From Calothrix sp. PCC 7716 (GTDB lineage Bacteria; Cyanobacteriota; Cyanobacteriia; Cyanobacteriales; Nostocaceae): 64,000 nt of DNA. Below the pieces are notes generated by a model that had not been told where the DNA came from, made no database searches, and saw only the letters and a list, made by a program, of their open reading frames with translations. A program made the translations under genes and the position numbers. The first letter of the stretch is position 1. Each line of letters begins with the position of its first letter. The DNA lies in the NCBI RefSeq assembly GCF_019977735.1, contig NZ_AP025018.1:11350580-11414579 (forward strand). The letters are read 5' to 3'. Shown here one piece after another: positions 1 to 64,000 of this stretch.

Positions 1-63
1 TTTGACATTAAATTGCTGAATCGACCAATTTTTTTGAACAATTTACGCAATTTTATTATGTAA
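1..63. other. AT-rich stretch downstream of the first gene
   Basis: This is the region just past the stop codon of the minus-strand tandem glycosyltransferase. It is very AT-rich. I see no gene, clear hairpin or repeat in it. Confidence 0.4.
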
Positions 64-2388
64 TTATTCATGGTAATCTAGTTGTATTTTTAAAATCAAA
101 TTATCTAAAATATTGTATATGTTTTGCGGTAAAAATCTATTTCTTATACGACACTGTGCTTTGATTATTTTTTCACGTAGCTTTTGATCTCGAACGGTTA
201 GCTTCGCTAATGCTGCTATTTGAGGCAAATCATCTTTACTAGTAAACATGAACGCAGCTTCTCCTAATGTTTCAGGTATAGCAGTGCTTTTATAAGCTAA
301 AATTGGAATATCAAACCACATCGCCTCTACTATTGGTACACAAAAACCTTCATGCTCGCTCATAGACCAGAACAAATGCGCTGTCCGATAATAAGCTAAT
401 AACTCAGCATCGTTTACTTGTCCTGGTAAGATTACAAAATCCCCTAGGTTCAATCGATTAATCGTGTTGATCAAATGTTGGTAGTAAGGGTCACTGATAT
501 CACCATATCCTACGAGAATAATGCGTGCATCACAATCCATTGTTAAATAATGTGCGAATGCTTCCAGCAAATTATCTTGTCGCTTATTGGGAGCTAGACG
601 ACCCACAAACAGCAAATTAGCTTTACCGTCTTGTAGCTTTCGCATCAGTTCAGCATCTGCTAATATATCCCATTTGCTGGGATTTACTATAATTGGCAAA
701 ACCTCTGGTTGAGAAAAACCACTTGCAGCAAGTTCAGCAGCATTATACTCAGAAACTCCAACCGATATCGGGAAGTACTGAGCTAGTGGCTTGAGGTCTG
801 CCCGACCTTTTTCTAAAATTTTTGCAAACTCTGCCCGATAAGGTACAAAAAATTCTGCGGGTGTAATGTTATGGTAAATTAAGCACTTATGACTTGGATG
901 AGCAATCGCAAAATCAGTTAACTCCGAGCCAATGGAATGATGGTAAATTAAGCCCGCTTTACGGTTTATACTCTTTGGGTTAAATATTATTGCTTCATCC
1001 CTAACTTGCTCATCTAGGTAACGAACAAAAATATCCGACTTATAACCGCAATTGCGTAAATAATTTCTAATTGCTATGGCTTGATTTGATATTGCATCAC
1101 CATAGGCAAGATTTGGCAAAAGTTGATGAACTTCTTGAAGTTTTCTAGCTTTTGGCTTTGTTGTAGCAACTGCTGGTTGTAAGAAAACTCCTAATTTATC
1201 TTCATAGCGTTGAATAATTTTATCCCACACTGCATTTTCTTGAGCATAGATATAACCTTTAGTACCTAGGTCAGTCATCTCTTGTTCGCTCTTAGTATCT
1301 ATGTGATAAAATAATTCTGTCCATTCGCTTTCTGCTTTTACTATCCAACCCCCACAAGTAGATGTTACAGCCATTGCAGTTGCTAAACAATCTCCGTGAA
1401 CCGCAACAGGTCGTTTGTAAAACCAAGCTTCCATCATTACGCGCGAGTAGCTTTCGTTTTGACTTGGTTGAAACAACGCAAGGCAGTTTGCTAACAATGC
1501 TTCTTTTTCATGTTCTTCAACCAAACCCAAATCGATTAAGTCTGGAGCAAAACCATTAAAAGATGTACTTCCAGGTCCTGCCAGAACTAATTTGAGATTC
1601 GATTGGTACTGCTGTTTAAAACTTGCAAAAGCTCTAATTAATAAATCTGTATTTTTCGTCGGGTCGCGACGACCTAAACAAAGTATAAAACGTTCTTGTT
1701 TTGGTTGAAAATTTTTTATTGTTATTTCTTGATTATTATACTCGCCTGGTTCTATTCCGGCGCCTACCACAGTACTCTTATTAATAATACCTGGGCCATA
1801 CAACTTGGTTGCTAGCCTAGCTTCTCCCTCACTAATAAATAGTAATGCTTTTGCTAAATGAAAAATATTGGCAACTTGGGGTAAGTAAGCGTAAACTTCA
1901 TTATGCAAACAAGGTTGTAGAAAAGCCTTATTAGCGACAATTGGTAAGCCATTTAATATCACCCCATAAAGATAAGGTAAAAAAATAAAAGCGTGATAAT
2001 TTTTATGTTTATCTTTTAAAAAATTTAGTAGCTCAGTAGAGTTAATATTTTCAGAAACAAATATGGATGATTCCTCTAAACTAACTGGATTAACTCCTGG
2101 CTGTAGTGAAGATGCCAAATTTAACATTAAACCATTAACTTGGTCAAAAGTGTTTTTATCACGAGAATCAACTCGAAATCTACGAATTGTAACACCTTGT
2201 TCTTCTGTAACTCCTGCTCTTAGACTGTTAACGCTCCAATCTTGACTAAAAGCAACGGAGCAAGTTGTTAATACTTCAACTTGATGACCTCGACTTGCCA
2301 GACGTGTTGCCACTTGCCAAGCATGTTGCTCTGCTCCTCCTTTTAAATCCTTGCCAAACCAAGGAGTAACAATTGCGACTATAGTCAT
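64..2388 (-). CDS. Tandem GT4-family glycosyltransferase (two catalytic units in one chain)
   Basis: Predicted retaining glycosyltransferase of 774 residues made of two complete GT4 (GT-B fold) units. The first (about residues 1-405) opens with an acceptor-side GGAEQH motif near residue 17, has the nucleotide-sugar domain start FILCLGRRDPTKN, and an E-x7-E motif in NESYSRVMMEAW. The second (about 430-774) has LLFVGRLAPNKRQ and EHEGFCVPIVEAM, again with the E-x7-E spacing. It probably adds two successive sugars to a lipid-linked glycan at the cytoplasmic face of the membrane. Its ATG overlaps the stop of the upstream methyltransferase gene by an ATGA, so the two are translationally coupled. 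It is the last gene of the polysaccharide transcript visible here. Sugar donors and acceptors cannot be read from the sequence. Confidence 0.88.
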   Translation of the reverse strand: MTIVAIVTPWFGKDLKGGAEQHAWQVATRLASRGHQVEVLTTCSVAFSQDWSVNSLRAGVTEEQGVTIRRFRVDSRDKNTFDQVNGLMLNLASSLQPGVNPVSLEESSIFVSENINSTELLNFLKDKHKNYHAFIFLPYLYGVILNGLPIVANKAFLQPCLHNEVYAYLPQVANIFHLAKALLFISEGEARLATKLYGPGIINKSTVVGAGIEPGEYNNQEITIKNFQPKQERFILCLGRRDPTKNTDLLIRAFASFKQQYQSNLKLVLAGPGSTSFNGFAPDLIDLGLVEEHEKEALLANCLALFQPSQNESYSRVMMEAWFYKRPVAVHGDCLATAMAVTSTCGGWIVKAESEWTELFYHIDTKSEQEMTDLGTKGYIYAQENAVWDKIIQRYEDKLGVFLQPAVATTKPKARKLQEVHQLLPNLAYGDAISNQAIAIRNYLRNCGYKSDIFVRYLDEQVRDEAIIFNPKSINRKAGLIYHHSIGSELTDFAIAHPSHKCLIYHNITPAEFFVPYRAEFAKILEKGRADLKPLAQYFPISVGVSEYNAAELAASGFSQPEVLPIIVNPSKWDILADAELMRKLQDGKANLLFVGRLAPNKRQDNLLEAFAHYLTMDCDARIILVGYGDISDPYYQHLINTINRLNLGDFVILPGQVNDAELLAYYRTAHLFWSMSEHEGFCVPIVEAMWFDIPILAYKSTAIPETLGEAAFMFTSKDDLPQIAALAKLTVRDQKLREKIIKAQCRIRNRFLPQNIYNILDNLILKIQLDYHE

Positions 2389-3695
2389 AACTTATATCCT
2401 ACAACAGCGTAATCTTGTGCCCCGTAAAAATAATCATTAAAACGTTCAGCTTCCGCAGAACCACTCAATTTTAGCGTTTCTGGATAAGGATGAAGTTTTA
2501 AAATATCCACTTTACAAAAACCAATAAATTCAGCAATAAATTTTATTGTAATACTGGGTAGAGGATTGCGATGAGTGGGGTCAATATAAAAATTATGGGT
2601 ACCTACTAATACATTTTCTGGGTTTGGAGTTTCAAAAATAACTAACCCTTCTGGTTTTAAAACCCTTAATGTCTCAGTAAATAACTTCAAAATGTCCTCA
2701 AATGCTAAGTGTTCAATAATATGAAAACCTGTGATGGCGCCTAAACTTTCATCTGGTAAAGACTGTATATACTTAATTACATCTTCTTCTATAACCTCTA
2801 ATCCTCTACTTCTACATTGCTCTAGCATTACACTATTAGTATCTATACCTGTTGCCAAATATCCAGACTCGCGCAATAATTCTAACCATTCACCACGACC
2901 ACATCCAATATCTAAAATATGTGCATCAGACCGACCAATTTTTGCTTGTTCTATTAAAGGTAAATAAATCTTAAATCTATCATAAATTTCTTCACGACTG
3001 CCTCTAAATTTATCTTCAAATGCAACATATAAAGCATCAAGTGAATATTTATTGTCAGTCAAAATTTGCAGTTGAGCTTGCTGAAACTGGTTAGGTAAAA
3101 ACTTTTGTGCTTCTTCTAAAAATCTTGTCATTAAATGCTTTTGTTGAGCTAGTTCACTTTTTAGATAACTATCATTTCTGATATAACGTTCATCCATATA
3201 CTGAGAACGCTTGTCTAAACTCTGACAAAAGTTATCTAGAGTTTGAATTTGATTATCTAATGTTTTAACATTACTTTCGATACTAATTAAGCGAGTTGTT
3301 ATTTCTGCTTTAAGGATATTAACTTCTTCCGCCAACTGCTGATTTAATGCTACTGTTTCTCGCAATGATTGAATTAAATTAAGATTTACTTCTCTTTGAT
3401 CTTTAAAGAGAGTATTAAATGCTTTTAAAAGAAATTTTTCAATTATTTTACCTATATTGAGAGGGATACGACTAAATGTATCGGGTAATTTTGTACGTAC
3501 AGATGCTCTATTACTTGCATTGTTTAGCAAAGCTTCTATATACTTATGCTTGATTAAATTTACTCTTGGTTGAATATTTGTCATAAAAGGCTTAGATAAA
3601 TTTTGCTCAATCCTTGATTTACGTTGAGCCACTTCATTTTCAATTCTTTGCCTTAATTCATCAACATCAATTTCTTTAATATTGGATTCTATCAT
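2385..3695 (-). CDS. Coiled-coil SAM-dependent methyltransferase
   Basis: Class I SAM methyltransferase of 436 residues. The N-terminal half is charged and helical, with coiled coil at about residues 100-190. The catalytic Rossmann domain begins near residue 260 with ILDIGCGRGEWLELL, followed by the acidic ribose-binding stretch in TGIDTNSVML and the post-motif GFHIIEHLAFEDIL. Coiled coil plus methyltransferase is the layout of chain-terminating methyltransferases in ABC-transporter-dependent O-antigen pathways (WbdD type). By analogy it may cap the polysaccharide and act as a length ruler, which is inference. No kinase domain follows, unlike WbdD. It is coupled by a 4-bp overlap to the tandem GT4 gene downstream and separated by about 110 bp from the double methyltransferase upstream. 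Confidence 0.85.
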   Translation of the reverse strand: MIESNIKEIDVDELRQRIENEVAQRKSRIEQNLSKPFMTNIQPRVNLIKHKYIEALLNNASNRASVRTKLPDTFSRIPLNIGKIIEKFLLKAFNTLFKDQREVNLNLIQSLRETVALNQQLAEEVNILKAEITTRLISIESNVKTLDNQIQTLDNFCQSLDKRSQYMDERYIRNDSYLKSELAQQKHLMTRFLEEAQKFLPNQFQQAQLQILTDNKYSLDALYVAFEDKFRGSREEIYDRFKIYLPLIEQAKIGRSDAHILDIGCGRGEWLELLRESGYLATGIDTNSVMLEQCRSRGLEVIEEDVIKYIQSLPDESLGAITGFHIIEHLAFEDILKLFTETLRVLKPEGLVIFETPNPENVLVGTHNFYIDPTHRNPLPSITIKFIAEFIGFCKVDILKLHPYPETLKLSGSAEAERFNDYFYGAQDYAVVGYKL

Positions 3696-3806
3696 TATTT
3701 ACTCCTTATAAACAAAATAATGCTTTACATATATAAAACTTATTTTATACCAAAATAATATATTTAATAAATTATATATAAAATTTGGCGCCAACGAAAT
3801 CTAAAA

Positions 3807-5645
3807 CTAATTACTTATTATATCAATATAAAGGTCTTGATATAATTCAGTCGGTTTGACATCGAACCAGCGCACTCCTTCTTGTACTAGTGTAATTCTT
3901 AACATATAACTACCAGTATTAGACAGTGATTGTACGGTTGCCGAATATGTTCTTTTATTAACTTGATGTCCAAAAAGCTTTATACTCAAACTTTTGTTTG
4001 TATACAAAACAGGAATTATTTTAGTTCTTTTGCCGTCAAAAACAAGATACTCGTTATCTTTACTCATCCAATGGTATGCAATATGAACTGGATTTTGCCC
4101 ACAGCTATTTAAAATAAATTCGCTGGTATTTTGAATCTCTAACTCAATTTCAAACTCGCTATCAACACTAACCATCTTGGGATAAGATTTCACAAGTAAA
4201 TTAATTTTACCTGGCAAGATATCAGGTAAGGGTGACATTTGTAATGTATTCTTTAACTGCTCGTAATTTAGCTGTTGTTGGGAAGCAACTGCAAATAAGC
4301 TAGGAGCTTGACGCATTTCTTTAATAGAAAATTTCTTGATTAAACTGCCACCAGGATTTTCTGGACATCCGAACCATAAATTTACATACTTAAAGTATTT
4401 ACTTAACTGCTTTTTCAAAACAACTGGTGATTGCTCATTAATATGCATGAGTTGCTCGTATCTTGAACGCGGTTCTTTAGGTAAATAAGCTCCTACAGAA
4501 GCTGCAATCTTTCTTCTACGTGAATACTCATACTTGTAATACCAAAGATTTGGAAAAGTATGTACAACAAATAATCCATCAGACTTAAGATTAGTCACGA
4601 CTTTTTGATACAGCTTATCGACTTCTTCAAAAGCTAAATGCTCTATTAAATCGGATGCAACTGCTAAGTCATATTTATGTTGTAATATAATGTTACACAC
4701 ATCATCACATATAAATTCCACGTTTTTTTGTAACTTATCTTCTTTGTCAAAACATTGTTGTGCCAATTTAATCGCACTTGGTGAGTAGTCAACAGATGTG
4801 ACGGCAAAACCTTGACGAGCAAAATAGTAGCTTAGTTCTCCTCTTCCACAACCTAAGTCAAGTACACGACCAGATTTTTTAAAACTGGAAATATTCGCTA
4901 CGGCAATCAATCTTGCATCTTCTAGTCGTTTTCCTTGATTTTTACTATAAGCATCAAAACCTCCACAATCTTGAGTAAAGTATTCATCAGTATAAGTTTG
5001 ACGAATCATTAAACTTGAAGAAGCTTTGCGTGTAAATTTATTAGCTTGGCCTAAATAATTTTCTGATACTTTTATAAGTAATTCTCCAGCATAACCTGGT
5101 ATGACACCATACCAATCTAGTAAATCAACATTGTGAAATAAAAAATCGCTAACTGCCAAAAAATTTGGACGTGTCCAAAAATAACCATCTACAAGTACAT
5201 ACCGTGCTTGCTTAATAGCTAATTTTAAATCATGAAATGAACTATCACCATCTTGTTGCCCGTCAACATGAATTAGATCATACACATCACCGGGAAAAAA
5301 TTCCATGCTTTGTGTATCGGCAACTATAAACTCGGTACTATATTGTTGGGTAATTTGTCTTGCCCAATCAATAGCTCCTTTAACTCCACCGTAAGAATTT
5401 GTGTCTAAATCAATACCAACATACTTAGCTGATGGAGATGCTTCGAGAAAAGCTACTGCGGAATAACCAAAACGTACTCCTATTTCTAAAATACTAGAAG
5501 GATTTAAGACGTTAGCTATTGCCCACTTTAATTTATAGTAATCAATCCAATCTTCAAAAAGATGGCTAAGTGGATCGTTTTTGTTAGCTGTTTTTTTAAA
5601 ATCGTATTCTGTCAACTTTGCTTTTTCTATAATTAAATCAAACAT
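3807..5645 (-). CDS. Double methyltransferase with C-terminal beta-sandwich domain
   Basis: Protein of 612 residues with two Rossmann methyltransferase units. The first (about 1-200) has SILEIGVRFGYSAVAF near residue 52 and an acidic VDGQQDGDSS segment, typical of the cephalosporin-hydroxylase/TylF-like or Methyltransf_24 group. The second (about 230-400) has RVLDLGCGRGELSYYF and SDLIEHLAFEEV, a Methyltransf_11/23-like domain. The last 130 residues look like a beta-sandwich, reminiscent of the carbohydrate-binding C-terminal domain of Wzt ATPases. It probably methylates polysaccharide sugars. Its ATG lies inside the end of the Wzt-type ATPase gene (8-bp overlap), which links it to export. The domain assignment is firm, the substrate unknown. 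Confidence 0.8.
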   Translation of the reverse strand: MFDLIIEKAKLTEYDFKKTANKNDPLSHLFEDWIDYYKLKWAIANVLNPSSILEIGVRFGYSAVAFLEASPSAKYVGIDLDTNSYGGVKGAIDWARQITQQYSTEFIVADTQSMEFFPGDVYDLIHVDGQQDGDSSFHDLKLAIKQARYVLVDGYFWTRPNFLAVSDFLFHNVDLLDWYGVIPGYAGELLIKVSENYLGQANKFTRKASSSLMIRQTYTDEYFTQDCGGFDAYSKNQGKRLEDARLIAVANISSFKKSGRVLDLGCGRGELSYYFARQGFAVTSVDYSPSAIKLAQQCFDKEDKLQKNVEFICDDVCNIILQHKYDLAVASDLIEHLAFEEVDKLYQKVVTNLKSDGLFVVHTFPNLWYYKYEYSRRRKIAASVGAYLPKEPRSRYEQLMHINEQSPVVLKKQLSKYFKYVNLWFGCPENPGGSLIKKFSIKEMRQAPSLFAVASQQQLNYEQLKNTLQMSPLPDILPGKINLLVKSYPKMVSVDSEFEIELEIQNTSEFILNSCGQNPVHIAYHWMSKDNEYLVFDGKRTKIIPVLYTNKSLSIKLFGHQVNKRTYSATVQSLSNTGSYMLRITLVQEGVRWFDVKPTELYQDLYIDIISN

Positions 5646-6927
5646 AAGCTTTTTTTGAAATAGATAGAGATGGATATAAGTTAACTACTCCCGACCAAAT
5701 AATAGAATTTTTATTTCTTAAAACTTTGAAAGCGCTAACATTATGAGCGTAAATTAATGTTCGTTCAAATGACCCCTCTCCATATCCTGTATCTGTAAGA
5801 CCCACAGAAATTGTGTACTCACCTTCAATTAATGGCACGCAAAAATTAAATCGCAAATTTACAAAATTATTGCTTTCGACTTTGCCTATCTTTATTCCCA
5901 TACAATAAGTATTAGTTTCAAAAACAACTTCTCCTGTTTTATTCCTTATTTTAAAACCTGCGTGAGGGTCATCGAATGATTTTAAAAATAATAATCCAAT
6001 TGATATTTCTATTTTATCTTCGCTAATTAATGATTCTATTTCCTGGTTATTTTCATCTAACAAAGTCACAAATTTTAAATCTACTTCCGGTTGGTTAATA
6101 ACGACTTCATTATTAAAACTATTAGCTGAATTGCAGATGGATTCTGGGGAGGAAAGAATTTTAATTTCTAAAGATTTAGAATCTACATCATTTTTCTTTA
6201 AAAGATTTGCTTCATACAAATCAATGACTTGCTTTGGTTTATTATCAAGTATTAATTTACCCGACTCTAACAACAATGCTCTTGTGCAAAGTTTATATAC
6301 CGAAGTAGAATCATGAGAGACAAATAAAATAGTTGTCCCCAAATCCTTGAGTTGTCTTAGTCTTTCGTAACATTTTTGTTGAAAGTAAACATCACCTACT
6401 GCAAGTGCTTCATCTACAATTAAAATGTCAGGATTAACACACACTGCTACAGTAAATGCTAATCTCACGAACATACCACTAGAGTATGTTTTTACAGGTT
6501 GGTCAATAAAGTCGCCAATATCGGCAAAGGCTAAAATTTCATTGAATTTAGCTTCTATATCTTGCTGACTTAACCCCAAAATGCGTGCATTAAAAAACAC
6601 ATTTTGGCGCCCAGTAAATTCAGGGTTAAATCCACTACCAAGTTCTAAAAGCGCCGAAACTCGTCCATTCACCAATACATTACCAGTAGTTGGTGTAAGG
6701 GTTCTGGCAATAATTTGCAGCAGTGTGCTTTTGCCGGAACCATTTTGACCAATAATTCCTACAGTTTCACCAATGTGTACTTCTAAATCAATATCTTGCA
6801 GTGCCCAAAACTCCTGGGCATAATTTTTTGTCGGTAGCAAAACTTCCTTTAACTTATCCACCGGGCGCCCATAGCGCTTGTAACATTTCGATACATTTTG
6901 CAGTGAAATCGCTAACTCGTCGCCCAT
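5638..6927 (-). CDS. Polysaccharide ABC exporter ATPase, Wzt type (copy A)
   Basis: ATP-binding subunit of an ABC-2 polysaccharide/O-antigen/teichoic-acid exporter. It has Walker A GIIGQNGSGKST at about residues 60-70, the ABC signature YSSGMFVRLAF, Walker B ILIVDEALAVGD, and an H-loop histidine in FVSHDS. Residues from about 260 to the end form a Wzt_C-like beta-rich domain, which in family members binds the chain to be exported. The open frame extends 4 codons upstream to a GTG at 6939. I chose the ATG at 6927 because relatives begin with this short MGDELAISL-type N-terminus. No Wzm permease gene is adjacent. The nucleotide-binding half is almost the same as copy B at 23408-24727, while the C-terminal halves differ strongly. 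Confidence 0.9.
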   Translation of the reverse strand: MGDELAISLQNVSKCYKRYGRPVDKLKEVLLPTKNYAQEFWALQDIDLEVHIGETVGIIGQNGSGKSTLLQIIARTLTPTTGNVLVNGRVSALLELGSGFNPEFTGRQNVFFNARILGLSQQDIEAKFNEILAFADIGDFIDQPVKTYSSGMFVRLAFTVAVCVNPDILIVDEALAVGDVYFQQKCYERLRQLKDLGTTILFVSHDSTSVYKLCTRALLLESGKLILDNKPKQVIDLYEANLLKKNDVDSKSLEIKILSSPESICNSANSFNNEVVINQPEVDLKFVTLLDENNQEIESLISEDKIEISIGLLFLKSFDDPHAGFKIRNKTGEVVFETNTYCMGIKIGKVESNNFVNLRFNFCVPLIEGEYTISVGLTDTGYGEGSFERTLIYAHNVSAFKVLRNKNSIIWSGVVNLYPSLSISKKAYV

Positions 6928-6953
6928 GACACCATGCACACGCTTATAAACAA

Positions 6954-7433
6954 CTAAATCATCGCATTAACTAAGCTTTTCCGGATAATAGCATTATCAA
7001 GGGCAGTGGATAACTCACCCCCATCTGGAATTAAGCCTAGTGCCTGTAAATCAGCTTCAACCATTAACTTTACTAGTTGCTCAAAACTGACAGAAGGTTC
7101 CCATTATAACTTTTGCTTTGCTTTAGTTGCATCACCAATTAATAAATCTACCTCAGTTGGGCGCAAATAGCGCACGTCGAACTCAACATAATTTTTCCAG
7201 TTAAGGTTAACATACCCAAAGGCAATTTCCAAAAACTCTTGTACTGAATGGGTTTCTCCAGTCGCTACCACATAATCATCGGGTACATCCTGCTGTAGCA
7301 TCAACCACATTGCCATAACATAATCTTTGGCTGAACTTGCTCAAGAATACGCCGCATCACAGTGCCATCGGTTAAATCTCCATACTGAAGAAACAAACGC
7401 GCCCGTAATTAGCACCCGTTTGCGCTCTGTCAT
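6954..7433 (-). pseudogene. gmd: GDP-mannose 4,6-dehydratase remnant (copy A)
   Basis: Remnant of gmd, which makes GDP-4-keto-6-deoxymannose for deoxysugar synthesis. Reading the minus strand from an ATG at 7433, the N-terminal start MTERKRVLITGA is followed by a large internal deletion, a short piece matching [20 protein letters not shown], another junction, and then an open stretch of about 70 codons (7104-7316) with [16 protein letters not shown] and [19 protein letters not shown]. An in-frame TAA at 7104-7106 then interrupts the conserved K-L-G-W-E-P segment, and the C-terminus continues to a TAG at 6954-6956. An intact family member has about 350 residues, so this copy is dead. It sits just upstream of the Wzt ATPase gene, exactly as the second remnant does near 25 kb. 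Confidence 0.85.
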
Positions 7434-7517
7434 ATTTTTTACCGCTTTCTACAAGCACTATGACATATTACAAGCTTTTTGGTTTCGCAAATAGTGGCGC
7501 CAACGAGTCTTTGCCTT

Positions 7518-9156: not shown

Positions 9157-9241
9157 AAGTAAAAGTGGTGTCAGTGATTATGTACTAATTAAATTACGAC
9201 TTGATGCATAACTCAACATGAATGCATTATTTGTTCGATTA

Positions 9242-49803: not shown

Positions 49804-49805
49804 GA

Positions 49806-55529: not shown

Positions 55530-55629
55530 GATTTAAGTCGATATTTGCAGGATGTTAATCAAAATTTAATCTTTGTCTACAATTACTATAGTTTTTCAAT
55601 AAATTTATCCAGCTTGGGACATAATCCAA

Positions 55630-56541
55630 ATGCCATACTTAGACTCGCTATCAGAAATTCGTAAATTTATTACAGAATGCACCAAAGCCGAAATTCTGTG
55701 GTTAGATACTGAAGTTGCAGATTTTAGAACAAAAACTCCTAAATTATCATTAATTCAGGTTCTTGATGACCCTAATGATATGAGTGGTGAGAGAATATTT
55801 ATTTTGGATGTACTCGAACAACCTGATGCAGTCAAAGATTTTATCAGTAGCATTATGATAAACGAGAATATCGAAAAGGTATTTCATAATGCCAGCTATG
55901 ACCTAAAATATCTTGGTAGTAGCAAAAAAGCAAAGAATGTTACCTGTACATTAGATATGGCAAAAAAAATTCCTTATCATATATTGCCGTTACGCGATTA
56001 TAAATTACAAACTTTAGCTCGTGAGCTTTGTAATTTTGACGACATTGATAAAGAACTGCAAACTAGTGACTGGGGAAGGCGCCCTTTAAGCGACGACCAA
56101 ATAGAGTATGCTATTCTCGATTGTATTTATTTAGCTCAGATTCACCAAGCATTATTAGAGTTAAATGAAGAAATAAGTCCTGACCCTCAAACAGATAACA
56201 TTGTGTCTTTAACAACAAGATACAAACAAATAGAAGACCAGTATAAAATTTTAAATTCAGAGTACGAGCATTTGCAAGAACGTCTTAAAAAGGCAATGCA
56301 AGCGCAAAATATAACAGAAACTTCAGATTTTAAGTTAAGCAGTTACGAACGTACAACAGTCAAAGTACCACTTGGAGAGCTAGTCAAGTTAGTTGAACAA
56401 GGTATAGAAATAGACTTCCCTATAACTCTTACGAAAGAGATACAGAAAAATTTGGGTGAAAATCTTGAACAATTAAATGTTGATATCGAAAAAATCGCTA
56501 GTTTACGATTGATTCCTCAGAAAAATGAAGATGATTTTTAA
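55630..56541 (+). CDS. RNase D-like 3'-5' exonuclease with C-terminal extension
   Basis: Protein of 303 residues. The DEDDy exonuclease domain (1-185) has WLDTEVAD (Exo I), FHNASYDLKYL (Exo II), the TSDWGRRPLSDDQIEYAILDCIYL segment (Exo III with Tyr). The remaining 115 residues contain a coiled coil (RYKQIEDQYKILNSEYEHLQERLKKAMQAQ) and a small unknown domain in the place of HRDC. It differs clearly from the short form at 30386-31015. It could degrade RNA or DNA 3' ends; the coil may mediate dimer formation. Confidence 0.85.
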   Translation: MPYLDSLSEIRKFITECTKAEILWLDTEVADFRTKTPKLSLIQVLDDPNDMSGERIFILDVLEQPDAVKDFISSIMINENIEKVFHNASYDLKYLGSSKKAKNVTCTLDMAKKIPYHILPLRDYKLQTLARELCNFDDIDKELQTSDWGRRPLSDDQIEYAILDCIYLAQIHQALLELNEEISPDPQTDNIVSLTTRYKQIEDQYKILNSEYEHLQERLKKAMQAQNITETSDFKLSSYERTTVKVPLGELVKLVEQGIEIDFPITLTKEIQKNLGENLEQLNVDIEKIASLRLIPQKNEDDF

Positions 56542-56746
56542 TAATATGTTTTTAATGTAAAATTAAACACTCATAAATTCAATAAAATTTGTTCAAATAT
56601 TTATAGTATATTTATTTAAATAAAATGTAAATAGAACTAAAATTCGATAATGCCTCTAAAGTCAACCAACATTAATACCAAGGATATTAAGTATTTATAC
56701 TCTTTGTAACTATTCGGGATAATCTACTTATTCTTTATACCGACAT
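56542..56746. other. AT-rich intergenic region
   Basis: No gene or strong repeat is seen in these 205 bases; they should contain the promoter of the TPR lipoprotein gene. Confidence 0.35.
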
Positions 56747-57592
56747 ATGAACTTGTGGTTGTTTAAACGAAAGTCATCAAGGGCAAGCAAAACAGGTATT
56801 GTAGTTATCCTGACAGTATTAGTCGTTACTACAATTGCTTCTTGTAGCCAACAAAATAATAATGATGTGTTAGTAACAGAAATTGGGGTTACTTCACCAA
56901 AAAATGCACCAATCAAGCCAACGAAACCTGCTGACTTCTTTGCAATTGGATTGCAACGACAAAGCAAAGGTGATTTACGCGGCGCCATAGCAGCTTACAA
57001 TCAAGCAATCAAACTCAATCCGAAATACGGCGCCGCTTATAATAGTCGTGGTTTAGCTAAGTTTGATTCGGGTGATAAACAAGGCGCCATAGCAGATTAT
57101 AATCAAGCGCTACAAATTAATCCAAACGATGCTCAAGCTTATAACTACCGAGGTAATGCTCGTGCAGCACTCGGTGATAATAACGCTGCAATTTCAGATT
57201 ACAACGAAGCAATTCGGATTAATCCTAATTATGCCGACGCTTATAATAACCGAGGCAACGCGCGTGCAGCATTAGGAGATAGAAGCAACGCTCTTGCTGA
57301 TTACAATAAAGCTTTGGAACTCAACCCTCAATACTCGGTAGCTTATAATAATCGGGGAAATGCTCGTGCAGCCCAAGGTGATACAAACGGCGCCGTTGCT
57401 GATTATGATGAAGCTATTCGTATAAATCCAAATTTTGCCGCTGCATATAATAACAGAGGAAATGCGCGCGCAGCATTAGGAAATAAACAAGGCGCCATTG
57501 CCGATTTACAACGCGCAGCAGATTTATTTCAAAAGCAAGGTTCACAGCAACTTGCCCAACAAGCCACCAATACTTTAAACCAACTTAAATAA
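56747..57592 (+). CDS. TPR-repeat lipoprotein
   Basis: Protein of 281 residues. The N-terminus has a signal peptide with a lipobox (TIASC, Cys about residue 33), so it is probably a lipid-anchored exported protein. From about residue 68 six tetratricopeptide repeats follow, each with the pattern G-D-x-x-GAIADYNQAI-x-x-NPxYAxAYNNRGNARAALG. Repeats are so alike that recent internal duplication is likely. The Gly-Ala pair in GAIA or GAVA is coded by GGCGCC in five repeats. TPR arrays bind partner proteins, so a scaffold role at the periplasmic face is likely. The partner is unknown. Confidence 0.9.
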   Translation: MNLWLFKRKSSRASKTGIVVILTVLVVTTIASCSQQNNNDVLVTEIGVTSPKNAPIKPTKPADFFAIGLQRQSKGDLRGAIAAYNQAIKLNPKYGAAYNSRGLAKFDSGDKQGAIADYNQALQINPNDAQAYNYRGNARAALGDNNAAISDYNEAIRINPNYADAYNNRGNARAALGDRSNALADYNKALELNPQYSVAYNNRGNARAAQGDTNGAVADYDEAIRINPNFAAAYNNRGNARAALGNKQGAIADLQRAADLFQKQGSQQLAQQATNTLNQLK

Positions 57593-57836
57593 TAGTTTTT
57601 AACTATATATAAACCCGGTGTACATAAATGTATTCGGGTTTATTTTTATTATGATTTATTAATTTTATCATTGAAAAATCGTAATTGTAACTACACACAT
57701 ATATATAAAACATAGATAATATTGTATGAATATAATTGGTTGGTTAGTCAGCTAATTCTTCAGTGTACCAGTGGTGTTTAAATATCATTTCAATTAAATC
57801 AAAATTCTGCGTTAAACCCATATCAAGGAGTTTGCC
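57593..57836. other. AT-rich intergenic region
   Basis: No gene supported. A half copy of the AAACCCGG repeat is at 57612-57620 and mirrored by CGGGTTTAT near 57635, forming a short stem after the TPR gene. Confidence 0.35.
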
Positions 57837-58058
57837 ATGCAAGGACGTATGTGCTGGTTATCACGAGATGGCGAAGATAGTGAAAAAATATTGCATTTGC
57901 AAACCGAAACAAGTCATGGATGGCGCCCGTATACAACATTTCCACAATTTGCGGCGCCTGACCATGCTTTACCGGGAAGTTCTAAAGGTTTGGCAACTTT
58001 CCAAAAGTTATTAAAAGCAGGTTGGACTGTAGTTCCTAGTAATATGCCACACCAATAA
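57837..58058 (+). CDS. Small conserved hypothetical protein (73 aa)
   Basis: Protein of 73 residues with a strong ribosome site (AAGGAG 6 nt before the ATG). It reads MQGRMCWLSRDGEDSEKILHLQTET and later GWRPYTTFPQFAAPDHALPG and FQKLLKAGWTVVPSN. No membrane span or signal. I recall similar short proteins in cyanobacteria but no function. An array of 14-bp tandem repeats starts 3 bp after its stop. Confidence 0.65.
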   Translation: MQGRMCWLSRDGEDSEKILHLQTETSHGWRPYTTFPQFAAPDHALPGSSKGLATFQKLLKAGWTVVPSNMPHQ

Positions 58059-58060
58059 TT

Positions 58061-58172
58061 ATCTTGTAGATATCATCTTGTAGATATCATCTTGTAGATA
58101 TCATCTTGTAGATATCATCTTGTAGATATCATCTTGTAGATATCATCTTGTAGATATCATCTTGTAGATATC
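58061..58172. repeat. Eight perfect 14-bp tandem repeats
   Basis: The unit ATCTTGTAGATATC is repeated exactly eight times. The unit holds the palindrome GATATC at the junction with its neighbour. The array runs directly into a hairpin repeat that begins with the same letters (ATCTTGTGG at 58173). The period of 14 is not a multiple of three, so it is non-coding. Confidence 0.9.
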
Positions 58173-58205
58173 ATCTTGTGGAATGGGCATCCTTGCCCGT
58201 TCTAA
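58173..58205. repeat. Hairpin repeat of the GGGCATCCTTGCCCG family
   Basis: A stem from GGAATGGGC and GCCCGTTCT follows the 14-bp array without a gap. It is related to copies at 33594 and 45316. Confidence 0.65.
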
Positions 58206-58239
58206 ACTTGAGGGCAAGCAAATATGTACACCCCACAAG

Positions 58240-58473
58240 CTAGGCAGCAGGCTTATGCTGTTCAAGACGCTCGGCAATCCATACTTTTATAATTGATTGT
58301 CGTGTAACACCAATGCGTGCAGCTTCTTTGTCTAATGCTTCAATTACCCATATAGGAAAATCGACGTTGACTCGTCGTTGCTCATGACCAGGACGACGAA
58401 TTGTGTTCATGTCTAAGTAAGGGGTTATGTCCTCACCCGAATCGAATTTTTCATCAAATTCTTCAGCCTTCAT
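58240..58473 (-). CDS. brnA: BrnA antitoxin
   Basis: Protein of 77 residues with a C-terminal ribbon-helix-helix: RRVNVDFPIWVIEALDKEAARIGVTRQSIIKVWIAERLEQ. Such antitoxins bind BrnT and repress their own operon. The gene overlaps the end of brnT by 11 bp, so the two are translated together. The order toxin then antitoxin is the usual one for brnTA. Confidence 0.88.
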   Translation of the reverse strand: MKAEEFDEKFDSGEDITPYLDMNTIRRPGHEQRRVNVDFPIWVIEALDKEAARIGVTRQSIIKVWIAERLEQHKPAA

Positions 58474-58723
58474 ATATTTTTATCTCCTCATCTCTTGCTC
58501 GTCTTACTGATATAATTCGCACCCGCTCCTCTCTATACGTGATGACGGCAGCCCAAAATTTCGCTTTTATCTGCCCAATCACAAGAAACCTTGACTCCTC
58601 AACAGCACGAGCCGCAACTTCTACCCGGTCTGTATCCTGCCATAGCTTCTGCGCTTCAACAAAATCAATACCGTGTTTTACTTGATTTGAAGCACTTTTG
58701 CGCTCGTCGAACTCAAATTGCAT
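58463..58723 (-). CDS. brnT: BrnT toxin
   Basis: RelE-like ribonuclease toxin of 86 residues. It shows the full family pattern: FEFDERKSASNQVKHGIDFVEAQKLW, VIGQIKAKFWAAVITYREERVRIISVRRARDEEIKIYE, with the conserved catalytic Lys, Arg and Tyr candidates of the C-terminal ISxRRAR-x-EE-x-x-Y motif. Neither frameshift nor stop is visible, so the module looks intact, unlike hicAB at 35.4 kb. It probably cuts mRNA at the ribosome or free under stress. Upstream AT-rich DNA holds the promoter. Confidence 0.9.
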   Translation of the reverse strand: MQFEFDERKSASNQVKHGIDFVEAQKLWQDTDRVEVAARAVEESRFLVIGQIKAKFWAAVITYREERVRIISVRRARDEEIKIYEG

Positions 58724-58918
58724 GGAGGTAAGAGCATTAAAGTCTTTAGGTTAAAAAAGGTATATTTAATATATTCTTTTTAATATACACTACTTCCCAT
58801 TTAAGCGAAGCACACCACAGGCATTTATGTATGTGTATTTATATTAATTCTCTTGTAGAGTGGGCATCCTTGCCCGCCCTACAGGCGAGACACCCGTGCA
58901 AAAAGCTGCGCTTCCCAA
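58724..58918. repeat. Intergenic region with a hairpin repeat
   Basis: A GTGGGCATCCTTGCCCGCCC stem at about 58860-58882 is followed by CAGGCGAGACACCCGTGC. The rest is AT-rich, upstream of brnT. No gene. Confidence 0.5.
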
Positions 58919-59086
58919 CTAAGCATCCCGAATACTACCATCAGGCATTTCAGTGCTACGGAAAATAGCACCTTCCAAAATAGCACCCTCCAAAATAGCG
59001 CCCCGCAAATTAGCGTAACTGAGATTAGCAGCACTCAAATTGGCGCCACGTAAATTAGCATTACTTAAATCAACATCAACTAACAC
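58919..59086 (-). pseudogene. Pentapeptide-repeat protein remnant
   Basis: From a GTG at 59086 the minus strand reads five-residue repeats A(N/I)L-x-x: [20 protein letters not shown], then [18 protein letters not shown], ending [13 protein letters not shown] and a stop at 58919. This is the last 55 residues of a pentapeptide-repeat protein; no ribosome site or normal N-terminus is visible. It may be a relic or an extremely short gene. Confidence 0.6.
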
Positions 59087-59400
59087 ATAAAAAATAATCT
59101 ATTTGACTTTTCGTTTATGCTTTTTGACACTACCAAGCATTTTTACTTAGCCTTTTAAATTGCATTAAAAAGTATATTGATGAAAACTTGAAAGAGTTTT
59201 TAATTGGTTGACTTATTTTAGATAACTTAAATTCTACATTTCCTAGCATAGTGGTCTGTGTTATTAAATTTAAGACGTTATTATTTTAATAACTCTTCCT
59301 TTGTGTCCTTTGTGGTTTATTTCTTTTCTCTCTGTGTTCTCTGTGCCTCTGTGGTAAAAATAATAACATGACTAACAGGCAGGGATGCCTGTTCCACAAG
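59087..59400. repeat. Non-coding region with dispersed repeats
   Basis: At about 59298-59368 TCCTTTGTGTCCTTTGTGG and CTCTGTGTTCTCTGTGCCTC form part of the widespread CACAGAGGCACAGAG-type element, followed by a CAGGCAGGGATGCCTG hairpin at 59378-59396 just past the DhaM-fusion stop. No gene. Confidence 0.6.
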
Positions 59401-62040
59401 TCAGGAGTATTTGAAAGTTCTGAGTAATTCGCGGACTTTGGCAGCAGATTCTTGTTTCAGCGCTTCTGAGACAATTGTTTCTGCTTCAATAAAACTTAAC
59501 TGAGTAATTGCTTTTTTACACCTAGGAATAGCTTGAGGATTTAAGCTGACATCATCTAATCCTAACCCAATTAATATAGGTGTAGCTATTGGGTCAGACC
59601 CAAGCTCACCGCATAAGCTTACAACTATTCCAGCTTTGTGTGCGGCTTTTACTGCTTGTTGTACCATTCTTAGTACTGCTGGGTGTAATGCATCAGCTAA
59701 ACTAGCTACTTGTGGGTTAGTACGGTCACACGCCATTACATATTGACTTAGGTCGTTAGTACCAATGCTGAAAAAATCGACTTGAGGCGCCAGTTGGTCA
59801 GCTATTGCAACTGCAGACGGTACTTCTATCATGATTCCAACTTTAATTTTGTCATTGAAGCGAATATCATGGCGCCGCAGTTCTTCAAAGACTTCTGCTA
59901 AAATAGCTTTTGCTGCTTTTAGTTCTCCAATGGTGGCAATCATTGGAAACATAACTTTGATATTACCCTCAGCCGAAGCGCGCAAAATAGCTCTTAACTG
60001 CGTTTTAAATAATTCTGTCCTATCTAAGCAAAATCTAATTCCTCGCCATCCTAAAAATGGATTATTCTCTGATGGTAAATTTAAATATGGTACTGGTTTA
60101 TCACCTCCAATATCGAAGGTACGAATTATTAAAGGACGTGATTCGAGTACTTGGGTGATACCTTGATAAACTTTTAGCTGTTCTTCTTCACTAGGTGGTG
60201 TTTTGCGGTCGAGATATAAAAATTCTGTACGCAGTAACCCAACACCTTCTGCTCCCATGCTTATTGCGACTTTAGCGTCTGCGACTCCTCCAATATTGGC
60301 ATACACAACCATCCGGCGCCCGTCGGTAGTAATAGCATTTTTATGAGCGTTGCGAAATGCTCTTTGTTCTGAGCTTTGCCATGCAGAACGTTGCGCTTCT
60401 ATGGCTGTAATAATATCTACGCTCGGTTCTACCCATACGTTTCCTGTACCACCGTTGAGCGCAACTATTGTACCATCTGCTACCCTTAATATACCTTCGG
60501 GAACACCTACAACTGCCGGAATTCCTAAACTGCGGGCAATAATTGCAGTGTGTGATGTAGCACTACCTGCTGTCGTACAAATACCTAATACTTTGCTCGT
60601 ATCTAATTGAGCGGTATCTGAAGGAGTCAGGTCTGTGGCAATTAAAATAGATGGTTCGGTTAAATTGAGATGTGCTGCTGCGGTACCAAGTAATAATCTT
60701 AATACTCGTTGTCCTACATCAATAACATCAGCAGCACGCGAGCGTAAGTAAGAGTCGTAATGAGTACGATATTGATTGGTTAGTTCTTCAACTACAGCTT
60801 GCCATGCCGAAGCAGCATTAATATGTCGAACATATATATAGTGTTGTAGTGCTTCTAAAATAACTGGGTCGTTTAAAAATAATAAGTGCGCGTCGAATAT
60901 TGCCGCTTCTGTATCACCTATTTGAGTTGATGTCTGGGATAGTAGTACTTCTATTTCAGTTGCTGCATCACGAAGAGCTTTTTGTAAAAATTCCCATTCT
61001 CTATCTGGGTTATCTATATAATATTGCTGTGACTGAACGCTTGGTAGTTGATGGCGAACTAAAGGCGCCATTGCATAGCGAAGACTAGGAGCAATAGCAA
61101 CACCAGGAGATGCGGGAATACCTCGAAGCGTTGGCGCCGCAGTTGATATAAATGTTTCATCAGGAGTCGCGTGAATTTGTGACTCCTGAAGTGGGGTATC
61201 ACCTTCACCCTTCGGGTTCGCCAGTTTGCTTATGCCGGGGAACCCGTCCACCGCAACTGGCTCACCAAAGTTATTTTCTACCAAAGCTTGTAAAGCAGCT
61301 ATTGCCGCATCAGCATCGGTGCCTGTAGCAGAAATTGCCAGTTCATGCCCATGACGCACCCCTAACATTGCCACTTGGTTAATACTATCTGCACGCACGT
61401 AACCAGTATTCTTGGTTAAATTTTTAACTTTTATTTGGGCTTCAAAACGCGAAGAAGTAGCAACAAATTGTGCCGCAGGACGAGCATGTAGCCCCATACG
61501 GTTACTGACGGCTATATGTATCTCTTTTGTATATTCTTCTTTGAAATATATTTCTGAGGATTCTTCGATATGCTCTGGTTGCTGTGTTGTAGGTACTTCC
61601 ATACCCAACTGTGAAGCTTTAGCAGCTAAGGCGCCGCGTGCTTCAGCCAGAACTTGTTCGATGCTACCACCAGCAGCAGCACAAACAACAGCAGCAACGG
61701 CGCCTTCAACAAGCGGAGCTTCACAAAGACGGATGTTGTTGCGTTGCTCTGGTAATAAAAACTCTAGCGCCATTTCCGCACTAAGAAGAGCGCTACCCAT
61801 ATCCATTAGAACAATAACACCAGCATCGCTGTAAACGGTCTCGATAGCTTGATGCACTTGCATGACATCAGTACCAAGCGGGTTAAGAGCATCGTCTACT
61901 CCACCAGCAACTGCCAGGGGAACTTGACCTTGAACCATCTGTGCTGCTAGTTCCCGCACACCAAGAGCGAGTTGCTTGCTGTGAGAAACAATGACAATTC
62001 CAACCACTGTTTGCGGTAATAAGCACTTTAGTGCTTCCAT
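59401..62040 (-). CDS. dhaM: DhaM-HPr-EI fusion phosphotransferase for dihydroxyacetone kinase
   Basis: Protein of 879 residues with three PTS parts. DhaM (EIIA-mannose-like), residues 1-140, has IVIVSHSKQLA with active His20 and VLMDMGSALLSAEMA. HPr, about 172-262, has MGLHARPAA with His185 and the S219 region. Enzyme I, about 303-870, has LRGIPASPGVA, SATSHTAIIARSLGIPAVVG with His497, the PEP-site FLYLDRK, GVGLLRTEF, FSIGTNDLSQY and the C-terminal CGELGSD. It carries phosphate from PEP through to DhaL-ADP. It follows dhaL by 62 bp. All three histidines are present. Confidence 0.95.
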   Translation of the reverse strand: MEALKCLLPQTVVGIVIVSHSKQLALGVRELAAQMVQGQVPLAVAGGVDDALNPLGTDVMQVHQAIETVYSDAGVIVLMDMGSALLSAEMALEFLLPEQRNNIRLCEAPLVEGAVAAVVCAAAGGSIEQVLAEARGALAAKASQLGMEVPTTQQPEHIEESSEIYFKEEYTKEIHIAVSNRMGLHARPAAQFVATSSRFEAQIKVKNLTKNTGYVRADSINQVAMLGVRHGHELAISATGTDADAAIAALQALVENNFGEPVAVDGFPGISKLANPKGEGDTPLQESQIHATPDETFISTAAPTLRGIPASPGVAIAPSLRYAMAPLVRHQLPSVQSQQYYIDNPDREWEFLQKALRDAATEIEVLLSQTSTQIGDTEAAIFDAHLLFLNDPVILEALQHYIYVRHINAASAWQAVVEELTNQYRTHYDSYLRSRAADVIDVGQRVLRLLLGTAAAHLNLTEPSILIATDLTPSDTAQLDTSKVLGICTTAGSATSHTAIIARSLGIPAVVGVPEGILRVADGTIVALNGGTGNVWVEPSVDIITAIEAQRSAWQSSEQRAFRNAHKNAITTDGRRMVVYANIGGVADAKVAISMGAEGVGLLRTEFLYLDRKTPPSEEEQLKVYQGITQVLESRPLIIRTFDIGGDKPVPYLNLPSENNPFLGWRGIRFCLDRTELFKTQLRAILRASAEGNIKVMFPMIATIGELKAAKAILAEVFEELRRHDIRFNDKIKVGIMIEVPSAVAIADQLAPQVDFFSIGTNDLSQYVMACDRTNPQVASLADALHPAVLRMVQQAVKAAHKAGIVVSLCGELGSDPIATPILIGLGLDDVSLNPQAIPRCKKAITQLSFIEAETIVSEALKQESAAKVRELLRTFKYS

Positions 62041-62102
62041 AAAATAAGGACTGCTTGGATAAGATAAGGACTAAAGTCCTTACAACGAGTATTCTTCCAT
62101 TC

Positions 62103-62723
62103 TTACAAACTATCGCAAAGACACTTCAACATTAAGAAACATGAAGCGGCGCCTGGGTCTTGATGTCCAACACTACGTTCACCCAAATAACTAGCGCGAC
62201 CCTTTTTAGCTTGCAACATCGAAGTCTCTTGAAGCGCTTGTTCTGCCCTATCTATTGCTTGCTGCATTGCCGCACGCATTAGTTTTCCTTCACCTACAGC
62301 TTTTTCATACATTGTTACTGCTGGGTAAAGTACATCAAGCATAGTTTTATCACCTAGCTGAGTTTTACCACGCTCCATAACTCCATCTAAACCAGCTTTG
62401 AGCAGGTCTAACATATCACGCTCATCAAGTTCATCCTTATCAGCCACAGCAGCCGAAGCGCGCAGAAAAAATGTACCATACAATGGACCACTGGCGCCTC
62501 CGATACTAGAAATTAAAGTCATACTCACCGCTTTTAAAATACTGCCAATATCTTTAGATGAGTAAGTTGGCAGTTGAACAAGTAGCTTTTTAAAGCCACG
62601 CTCCATATTAATACCGTGGTCAGCATCACCAATAGCAGCATCTAATTCAGTCAAATATTCTTTATTTTGTTCAATTTTGGTCGCAAATCGCTGCAACCAC
62701 CGTAAAACTTGTTCAGTATTCAT
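62103..62723 (-). CDS. dhaL: Dihydroxyacetone kinase subunit DhaL
   Basis: ADP-binding subunit of PTS-dependent dihydroxyacetone kinase, 206 residues. It holds ADP as a permanent cofactor that DhaM rephosphorylates. The magnesium-binding motif DAAIGDADHGINMERGF is present (three Asp), as are GGASGPLYGTFFLRA, GKTQLGDKTMLDVLYPA and the end GRASYLGERSVGHQDPGAASC. The gene starts 31 bp after dhaK. The order dhaK-dhaL-dhaM is the common one. Confidence 0.95.
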   Translation of the reverse strand: MNTEQVLRWLQRFATKIEQNKEYLTELDAAIGDADHGINMERGFKKLLVQLPTYSSKDIGSILKAVSMTLISSIGGASGPLYGTFFLRASAAVADKDELDERDMLDLLKAGLDGVMERGKTQLGDKTMLDVLYPAVTMYEKAVGEGKLMRAAMQQAIDRAEQALQETSMLQAKKGRASYLGERSVGHQDPGAASCFLMLKCLCDSL

Positions 62724-62754
62724 TCGACCTTTTAGTTATAATTATCTATTTTGA

Positions 62755-63828
62755 TTAAACCCCCCAACAAAAACTTGGAGTTTTTACAGGAGCATCCCAC
62801 AACTTAATCATCTCATCATCTAATTTAAGTAAAGTTATTGAGCAACCTTGCATCTCCAAAGAAGTAATATAAGGACCAATCAAGGTGCGAACGATATGTA
62901 AATCTCTACCAGCACAGATTTGAGCTAACTTTCTATAGATAATATAAAGTTCTGAAACAGGGGTTCCACCCATACTATTAATAAAAGCTAAAAATTTATC
63001 GCCTTTTTGAAAAGGTGGGCTAATCAACTCCACATCAACCCATTTACCATTATCCATATCCCACTCGCGGACAGTACGCTTATACGCTGCATCATCGAGA
63101 ATCGACAAAGCCAACATCGATGTTATTTCATTCGCGGGCAACATATCTATACGCTTTCTGCCAGGTTCGCCGTGAATTCCAATACCCACCTCCATTTCCC
63201 TTGCGCCTAAATTAAAAGTTGGAGACATCCGTACAGGAACAGTACACGAAGACAAAGCTATCCCCATACTGCGTCCATTCAAGCTAACTCTACGACACAA
63301 ATCAGCAACTTGCTGTAAATCATACCCTTCCTGTGCCGCCGCCCCACAAATTTTCTCAGCTAGTACTGTAGTTCCAACACCCCGACGCCCTTGAGTAAAC
63401 AAACTATCCTTAACAGCCACATCATCATCAATCAAAATATTAAGCACGCGCATACCTTCAGAGTAAGCTATCTCAGTAGCCATCTCGAAGTTCATCACAT
63501 CGCCACTGTAATTTTTAACTATATATAAAATCCCGGCGCCGCCATCAACATGCTTCGCAGCTTCAAGCATTTGGTCAGGAGTAGGAGAAGTAAAAACCTC
63601 GCCAGGACAAGCAGCATCAAGCATACCCATACCTACATACCCCCCATGCATCGGTTCATGACCACTACCCCCACCAGAAATAATAGCCACCTTACCCTTT
63701 ACTGGTGCATCCGCACGGTACACATACGTCGGGTCAAAGTTAACTTTTATTAAATCCTCATGGGCAATTGCCATTCCTTCTAGACTCTCGCGTACAAAGT
63801 CTTCAGGTTTATTAATCAGCTTCTTCAT
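62755..63828 (-). CDS. dhaK: Dihydroxyacetone kinase subunit DhaK
   Basis: Substrate-binding subunit of the kinase, 357 residues. It holds dihydroxyacetone as a hemiaminal with a histidine. Present are [36 protein letters not shown] with the first histidine, [14 protein letters not shown], and GIGIHGEPG with the histidine that bonds the substrate. [15 protein letters not shown] follows. AGGAG lies 8 nt before the ATG. It is the first gene of the three-gene operon, which runs to 59401. Dihydroxyacetone phosphate formed would enter glycolysis or the Calvin cycle. Confidence 0.95.
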
Positions 63829-64000
63829 AGCCGTTACTCCTGGTTCTGGGCGCCGAAACCCTCCACTTGTCAGATTACCATGTTGTATCCATCTTGTGGG
63901 GTGGGCATAGAAAGCCCGCCTTGCTTGATGGACGGGCTAGAAGCCCATCCCACAAGAGTAATTGGATATTTTTTATTGGAAGACTTGGGAGAAACGCCTT
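63829..64000. repeat. Upstream region of dhaK with a large inverted repeat
   Basis: CTTGTGGGGTGGGC (63893-63906) and GCCCATCCCACAAG (63943-63956) form a 14-bp stem with one mismatch, enclosing a smaller AAGCCCGCC/GACGGGCT stem. It is a composite copy of the TGGAATGGGC family. The dhaK promoter must lie between it and the gene or beyond. Confidence 0.65.

Follow-up and report, generated by a model that had tools for sequence, protein, structure and literature searches.

Introduction

Highly iterated palindromes (HIPs) are known from cyanobacteria, and HIP1 (GCGATCGC) is the very frequent word of most of them. It has been tied to orphan methyltransferases, and one-off sequences are common in many cyanobacteria (Elhai 2015, PMC4390886). 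That paper names GGCGCC as the 'alternate HIP' of Calothrix PCC 7103, which has two GRCGYC methyltransferases. The second methyltransferase copy is regarded there as possibly critical, and exceptional HIPs are described as sporadic and 'not in clades' (Elhai 2015, PMC4390886). A low number of HIP1 sites has been taken as a mark of acquired genes and islands (PMC3025956), and oligomers and transfer are also treated in PMC3497702. Why HIP1-like words persist in such numbers, thousands per genome, is a standing question in the field. In this study, a stretch of 64,000 nucleotides (nt) of Calothrix sp. PCC 7716 (contig NZ_AP025018.1, positions 11,350,580 to 11,414,579; hereafter the window) was analysed together with its genome and related genomes for the palindrome GGCGCC, which seems to stand there in the place of HIP1.

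Both general ideas are already in print: the alternate HIP itself (PMC4390886) and, for HIP1, the use of sparse motifs to recognise islands (PMC3025956). No later paper on GGCGCC in cyanobacteria was found by a literature search that covered few of the subscription journals. New here are the swap of the word across a genus, an apparent deamination scar at the inner C, a fitted restoration about 100 times that of control, close to a steady state and with a preference at each of the six positions, and the depletion of sister targets without restoration. A genus with a swapped word and seven comparable genomes makes gain and loss directly measurable, with the presumed sister targets of the same enzyme as an internal control.

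Results

GGCGCC is the top over-represented palindromic hexamer of the window, with 99 sites where base composition (GC 37.4%) predicts 2.8. Fifteen sites lie in 1–26,000 and 84 in 26,001–64,000. Neither HIP1 nor CGATCG occurs in the 64 kb. A preliminary description of the window had counted about 97 sites by eye, split about 13 and 84 between these two parts, and had reported the absence of HIP1; all of this was reproduced closely. Its expectation of about 4 sites assumed 40% GC and was a little high, and the strong excess holds. The whole genome (12,367,066 bases, or 12.37 Mb, in 10 contigs) has 20,380 GGCGCC sites and seven copies of the reversed control CCGCGG. HIP1 is not a high-frequency word in it, with 66 copies versus 64 for its own reversed control. 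Since the genome mean is 105 GGCGCC per 64 kb, the window in its entirety has an ordinary density.

From the main contig, 38 spaced stretches of 20 kb were sampled at random (L067–L104, 760 kb), and they gave 1,227 sites, versus 39.5 expected from base composition or 61.4 from a dinucleotide Markov model. The number per stretch was 32.3 on average (sd 8.3, range 6–45). Synonymous-codon shuffling was carried out on the 559 predicted genes (open frames of at least 100 amino acids) in the sample, and 1018 sites were observed against 76.6 in the shuffled genes (sd 9.3, 30 shuffles). The null-model count and the codon-use correction, both proposed in the preliminary description, thus leave the excess in place, the latter at 13-fold. 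All three reading frames are used (557, 270, and 191 of the 1018 sites), the commonest being frame 0 (GGC GCC). The density is 1.71 sites per kb inside called genes and 1.26 per kb outside.

The distribution of the word was determined in 217 genomes of the family, seven of the genus and 210 others. The congeners of the present strain are Dulcicalothrix desertica PCC 7102 (G060), Calothrix PCC 7103 (G061), Calothrix HK-06 (G062), Calothrix NIES-4105 (G063), and two metagenome-assembled Calothrix (G064 and G065). All seven genus genomes have 7,475–20,380 GGCGCC sites (1.15–1.7 per kb), and the swap reaches G064, which is about 17% diverged. The other 210 genomes have at most 1,053. HIP1 occurs 31–163 times in the genus and 30–8,803 times in the other 210, the lowest value belonging to one 3.2-Mb genome. 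Among 388 genomes drawn across the class, the present one included, no other came near its ratio to control of 20,380:7; the next-highest ratio, judged by eye, was 1,169:25 in G448. The density itself is equalled or exceeded where the control is also high, as in G502 (5,932 sites in 3.3 Mb, control 2,807) and G435 (9,489 in 3.8 Mb, control 2,450). These counts indicate that GGCGCC is an alternate HIP of the whole genus, that is, the clade of D. desertica PCC 7102 and Calothrix PCC 7103, and they show that it has replaced HIP1 in all seven genomes. The replacement that the preliminary description had read from the window therefore holds genome-wide and genus-wide.

Other cyanobacteria of the class-wide draw also have more GGCGCC than reversed control, namely G435 (9,489:2,450), G561 (3,074:165), and G448 (1,169:25). 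G435 differs sharply from its own congeners.

The neighbourhood of the word in sequence space was examined next to the word itself. In the 38 stretches, all 18 one-off words of GGCGCC together reach 686 copies versus 990 expected from base composition. The only near misses above expectation are GGTGCC (88 versus 63.5) and GGCACC (90 versus 61.9). Between species, 122 one-step alternatives were seen at GGCGCC, and 87 of them comprise 39 C3>T and 48 G4>A; C>T is rare at C5 and C6, with four and three cases. As lone changes, C3>T and G4>A appear in all seven genomes: most in PCC 7103 (14 of 176 columns), and further in the present genome (7/183), PCC 7102 (5/181), G065 (7/133), NIES-4105 (4/168), HK-06 (1/53), and G064 (1/26). 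Lone changes of other kinds number 45, of which 22 are in NIES-4105 and eight in G064. The predominance of C3>T and G4>A is the pattern that deamination would produce if the inner C were 5-methylcytosine, and the inner C is thus a probable site of methylation.

The other words of GRCGYC, presumed to be targets of the same methyltransferase and referred to as sister targets, behave differently. In the same stretches GACGCC (14 versus 61.9), GGCGTC (16 versus 63.5), and GACGTC (6 versus 99.6) are under-represented, at 0.23, 0.25, and 0.06 of expectation. Among 38 sister-target columns with conserved flanks, none keeps CG in all genomes, two are mixed, and 36 are without CG. Their fit gave a loss of 11.6 and a gain of 0.21 with no restoration; the GA..TC columns fitted alone (11 columns) are degenerate. 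Because these targets are lost without being gained, methylation alone seems to erode sites, and GGCGCC is spared. Past restriction of GACGCC, GGCGTC, and GACGTC may also have contributed to their depletion.

Gain and loss were estimated from an alignment of contig C1 of the present genome, from 11,250,580 to its end joined to 1–120,000, against the six congeners. The aligned length was 16.7–182 kb per congener at an identity of 0.83–0.95, after alignments below 300 nt or below 72% identity were dropped. Columns with fewer than four genomes were left out of the rate fits, as were TA-state columns (one target column and 3,868 any-flank control columns). The likelihood fit of 148 columns of GG[CG, TG or CA]CC gave a loss of 2.39 per path and a restoration to GGCGCC of 52, and restoration rates of 30 and below were rejected. 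The control fit with other flanks (6,058 columns) gave a loss of 0.81 per path and a gain of 0.49. For the GGCGCC fit, a stationary model was as good as a free root. Relative to control, the loss at positions 1, 2, 5, and 6 was 0.27, 0.08, 0.14, and 0.08 and the gain 33, 11, 28, and 8 times; at positions 3 and 4 the loss was 2.9 and 2.6 and the gain 306 and 197 times. The ratio of gain to loss, again relative to control, is thus 77–202 at every one of the six positions. The pattern reads as a single whole-word preference, to which a faster exchange at the presumably methylated base is added. When the data were pooled in one fit, gain over loss was 26.4 for GGCGCC and at most 2.5 for 26 other eligible hexamers, eligibility meaning 20 conserved columns and some of the 26 overlapping GGCGCC.

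Parsimony counted 36 single-lineage losses and no gains, with 50 near-miss columns as opportunities. This suggested a net decay of the motif. Net decay was rejected since fast restoration yields the same pattern and a free root fits no better; the fits show decay and restoration of GGCGCC in the aligned sequence to be consistent with a steady state. Conservation was also compared at synonymous third bases. In NIES-4105, third bases inside versus outside the motif were kept in 37/39 versus 228/344 cases for CGC, 96/110 versus 120/217 for GCC, 46/51 versus 181/337 for GCG, and 94/112 versus 116/202 for GGC. In these alignments GGCGCC is shown to be far more conserved than matched sequence, synonymous third positions included.

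A methyltransferase that could act on the word was sought with PF00145, that is, among cytosine-5 enzymes, and 16 matches were obtained in the present genome. One intact candidate orphan enzyme (L002) is chromosomal, at 10,950,497–10,951,489 of contig C1. Methyltransferases of its type adjoin RE_HindVP endonucleases in 29 of 30 loci examined, which are part of 50 listed matches in 43 genomes. L002 is 54–71% identical over most of the protein to 28 of these relatives and has a shorter match of 57% with one. The comparison indicates the type only, without ranking L002 against a second intact copy of the type on the chromosome (L004, 305 amino acids). We take the RE_HindVP endonuclease family to act on GRCGYC. 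No RE_HindVP match, the one endonuclease family searched, was found in any of the seven genus genomes, and no restriction-modification pair of this kind is seen. Orthologs of L002 exist in all seven, with 83–92% identity to the six congeners, and the congener loci have the same RuBisCO-like neighbour in five of six and the same hydrolase-like neighbour in four of six. PCC 7102 and G064 gave one GRCGYC-type match each among the 10 best-scored of 21 and 14 candidates, respectively. We infer from these sequences that a methyltransferase able to act on GGCGCC is encoded in the genus. The solitary methyltransferase that the preliminary description proposed to look for thus has a fitting candidate in every genus genome. 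A GRCGYC-type methyltransferase split in two frames (L008 and L016) was also seen on a smaller contig, C2, at 308,900–309,792.

Several other palindromes stood out in the 38 stretches. CGCGCG is the second over-represented one (271 versus 55 expected). TTCGAA (1, with 244 expected from the dinucleotide model), AGGCCT (1), CGTACG (1), GCATGC (2), GAGCTC (2), and TGCGCA (0) are nearly absent, and GATC and GGCC stand at about one tenth of expectation. This scarcity suggests several restriction systems, past or present. As to the arrangement of GGCGCC itself, short gaps between sites are rarer than expected: 13 versus 50 below 25 nt, and 31 versus 47.8 for 25–50 nt.

Within the window, positions 1–26,000 form a site-poor and GC-poor (0.34) polysaccharide region, in which glycosyltransferases, methyltransferases, epimerases, and two Wzt-type ABC ATPases are encoded and the 15 sites mentioned above are found. 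Only one of the 38 random stretches was as low as positions 1–20,000 (12 sites), and none was as high as positions 44,001–64,000, the densest part, with 52 sites in 20 kb. Prediction from a regression on GC alone gave 26.9 sites for 1–24,000 against 13 observed (P 0.004), and 69.6 for 24,001–64,000 against 86 observed (P 0.05). Part of the deficit is thus accounted for by low GC. The ratio of GGCGCC to other GG..CC words is 15:15 in 1–26,000 versus 1221:537 in 37 random stretches (Fisher P 0.028); stretch L083, which lies in an island, was excluded from this sample and from the gap test discussed below. The depletion of the sugar locus claimed in the preliminary description is therefore real and goes beyond GC, and what remains of it is modest.

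A variable cassette at 9,204–25,637 holds eight of these sites, with a ratio to other GG..CC words of 8:8 (P 0.11). Five of the eight (11,348, 12,108, 12,219, 12,282, and 12,365) lie in one glycosyltransferase/methyltransferase gene on the minus strand at 11,264–13,084, as had been described. The cassette is complete in one of the six congeners, G065, in the same place and at 90–94% identity. The other congeners have DNA there that is likewise GC-poor and site-poor (judged by eye in 5-kb bins, from alignments of at least 400 nt). All eight cassette sites are common to G065, and two sites are found in G065 only; in the core, 54 sites are common, 14 are found only in the present genome, and eight only in G065. 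This conserved core (26,314–63,885) has the same order in five congeners, G064 being compared only from about 44.4 kb plus a fragment near 26.4 kb. Since all eight cassette sites are shared, no active spread is visible, and the comparison does not suggest that the present strain gained the cassette recently. The preliminary proposal that the motif had not yet spread into a recently acquired locus finds some room in the deficit and in the lack of a complete cassette in five of six congeners, and it is countered by the eight shared sites. Similar sequence flanks the cassette at about 6,320–7,331 and 24,086–25,175, at or near the two Wzt-type ABC ATPase genes (74–80% through relatives). Recombination between these stretches could lead to exchange of the cassette. 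In addition, short repeats with many copies in the present genome and its congeners are located at about 45,311–45,422, 46,180–46,240, 59,297–59,400, and 61,208–61,263, and some are identical over 56 nt.

Elsewhere in the genome, low motif density does seem to mark islands, as the preliminary description had suggested and as the sugar locus of the window bears out only partly. The best case is C1 3,265,001–3,335,000 (L107–L110 and L083), which has normal GC, HIP1 sites, raised GATC, and 25 GGCGCC versus about 113 expected from the sample mean. Its ratio to other GG..CC words is 25:47 versus 1221:537 (P 3e-9). The largest of five open frames scanned in one 20-kb part (L108) encodes a type I polyketide synthase, and the best match of this part in the six congeners was 76% over 1.7 kb. 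HIP1 sites cluster in the present genome. By its sequence, the polyketide cluster is likely DNA from a HIP1-bearing cyanobacterium. At about 6,415,000–6,430,000 of C1 (L117 and L118) there is a glycosyltransferase cluster with HIP1 sites, few GGCGCC, and one Wzy match below the cut-off. This second sugar locus fits the island idea better than that of the window and is a smaller-scale analogue of the polyketide cluster. A 5-kb patch at C1 4,915,001–4,920,000 (L115) has a GC of 0.49, five HIP1 sites, 48 GATC, and one GGCGCC.

Discussion

The preferred explanation is selection for a methylated GGCGCC mark that is read by some protein, to which we give a probability of roughly 0.55. A chromosomal orphan cytosine-5 methyltransferase of probable GRCGYC specificity would methylate the inner C. 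Methylation would make every target prone to loss by C>T change, and the targets other than GGCGCC would decay away. GGCGCC alone would be maintained by a preference that resembles selection and amounts to about 100-fold at every one of the six positions, and this preference would most likely be selection for the methylated mark bound by a reader protein. A wider picture is put forward tentatively, at somewhat less than even odds. The word may be a genus-fixed epigenetic word in dynamic balance, in which the methyltransferase erodes all targets by deamination and a factor recognising exactly GGCGCC, either a selected reader or methyl-directed repair, rebuilds the word at about 100 times the rate seen in control sequence and does so with a preference at each position. 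In that case alternate HIPs would be lasting, inherited marks of the whole genome rather than passing accidents.

Several points weigh against this explanation. The GRCGYC specificity is taken from relatives beside RE_HindVP-family endonucleases (29 of 30 loci). Close relatives of the enzyme (E <1e-60; some broken or partial) are present in 55 other genomes of the family, and none of these has more than 277 GGCGCC. The enzyme is therefore not sufficient, and the methyltransferase alone was rejected as the cause. The rates were estimated from some 101,000 aligned columns surrounding a single chromosomal region, and the high restoration could be due in part to C>T variants that are recent, confined to one genome, and not yet fixed; on a species tree these would be taken for fast reversal. 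Noncoding sites are too few to show conservation by themselves, being kept in 12 of 14 cases in PCC 7102, 14 of 17 in PCC 7103, 4 of 7 in G065, and 5 of 7 in NIES-4105 (P 0.2 to 0.69).

The strongest rival is the repair ratchet of Elhai (2015), in which G-methylC-directed mismatch repair retains mutations that create GGmCGCC, with no selected function and a limit of about one site per 1000 nt. The inner-C methylation it needs is now suggested by the deamination scar. It predicts a gain bias, which is seen position by position, and sites less than 100 nt from another are kept somewhat less often (for example, 67/92 in PCC 7103 and 48/69 in NIES-4105), as some redundancy would give. However, gaps between sites are near exponential (mean 580 nt, CV 1.02, 1184 gaps), with those of 1.2–4 kb about as frequent as expected, and the few sites with no neighbour within 800 nt (9 to 20 per genome) are retained no better than those at 100–800 nt. 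Even spacing or a 1-kb set point was rejected on these grounds. The words GACGCC and GGCGTC, which in the model are steps toward GGCGCC, are depleted four-fold and, with GACGTC, show no restoration. Moreover, no second GRCGYC-type methyltransferase was seen among the 10 best-scored candidates each of PCC 7102 and G064, and PCC 7102 still has 1.7 sites per kb. The ratchet is thus judged to be a real but distinctly less probable explanation, standing at about half the weight of selection for the methylated mark; we infer this order.

The remaining explanations are weaker. A Vsr-like very-short-patch repair of the T:G mismatch in GG[T]GCC, restoring deaminated sites and overshooting, would account for the peak of restoration exactly at positions 3 and 4. 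It is improbable, since a Vsr family match was found in none of the seven genus genomes (one in the 217 of the family), and the gain and protection at positions 1, 2, 5, and 6 are left unexplained. For the same two reasons, Vsr-type repair was rejected as the sole cause; a mismatch endonuclease unrelated to Vsr may do such repair. The exact upkeep of the word and its restriction to the genus would also fit a DNA uptake signal or another protein-binding signal, for which GGCGCC is read as a word independently of methylation. This is quite unlikely, because near misses are scarce, not enriched, and the alternative states seen between species point to a methylated inner C. An artefact of composition or codon use, for which the prevalence of frame 0 (557 of 1018) could be cited, has hardly any probability left after the 13-fold excess over synonymous shuffling, the 1.26 sites per kb outside called genes, and the mere seven CCGCGG in the genome. 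Selection for the methylated mark is therefore retained as the leading explanation. The data argue against a set point of one site per kilobase, and they do not favour the view that a second methyltransferase is required.

Among known systems, the very-short-patch repair of Vsr and Dcm returns C at deaminated methyl-C sites and enriches the methylated word. The present genus differs in having no Vsr match and in favouring every position of its word. HIP1 of most cyanobacteria is alike in being a very frequent palindrome with a link to orphan methyltransferases. The word is another one here, and its near misses are depleted, whereas one-off sequences are common in many cyanobacteria according to Elhai (2015). 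The closest system is the alternate HIP of PCC 7103, a congener of the present strain, with the same motif, the loss of HIP1, GRCGYC methyltransferases, and depleted GACGTC (Elhai 2015). The covered sections of that paper hold no data on the methylated base, and here the difference spectrum points to the inner C. A second methyltransferase is possibly critical there, whereas here only one was seen in two genomes among the best-scored candidates. The occurrence of the trait in all seven genus genomes contradicts the sporadic, non-clade occurrence of exceptional HIPs, which was a description and not a definition. Finally, as with HIP1 scarcity (PMC3025956), few copies of a genome-wide palindrome can point to acquired genes. 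The difference is that two words can be combined here, and scarce GGCGCC together with the presence of HIP1 points to a HIP1-bearing donor. Such a two-word test offers a way to spot DNA of other cyanobacteria where GC content gives no sign of it.

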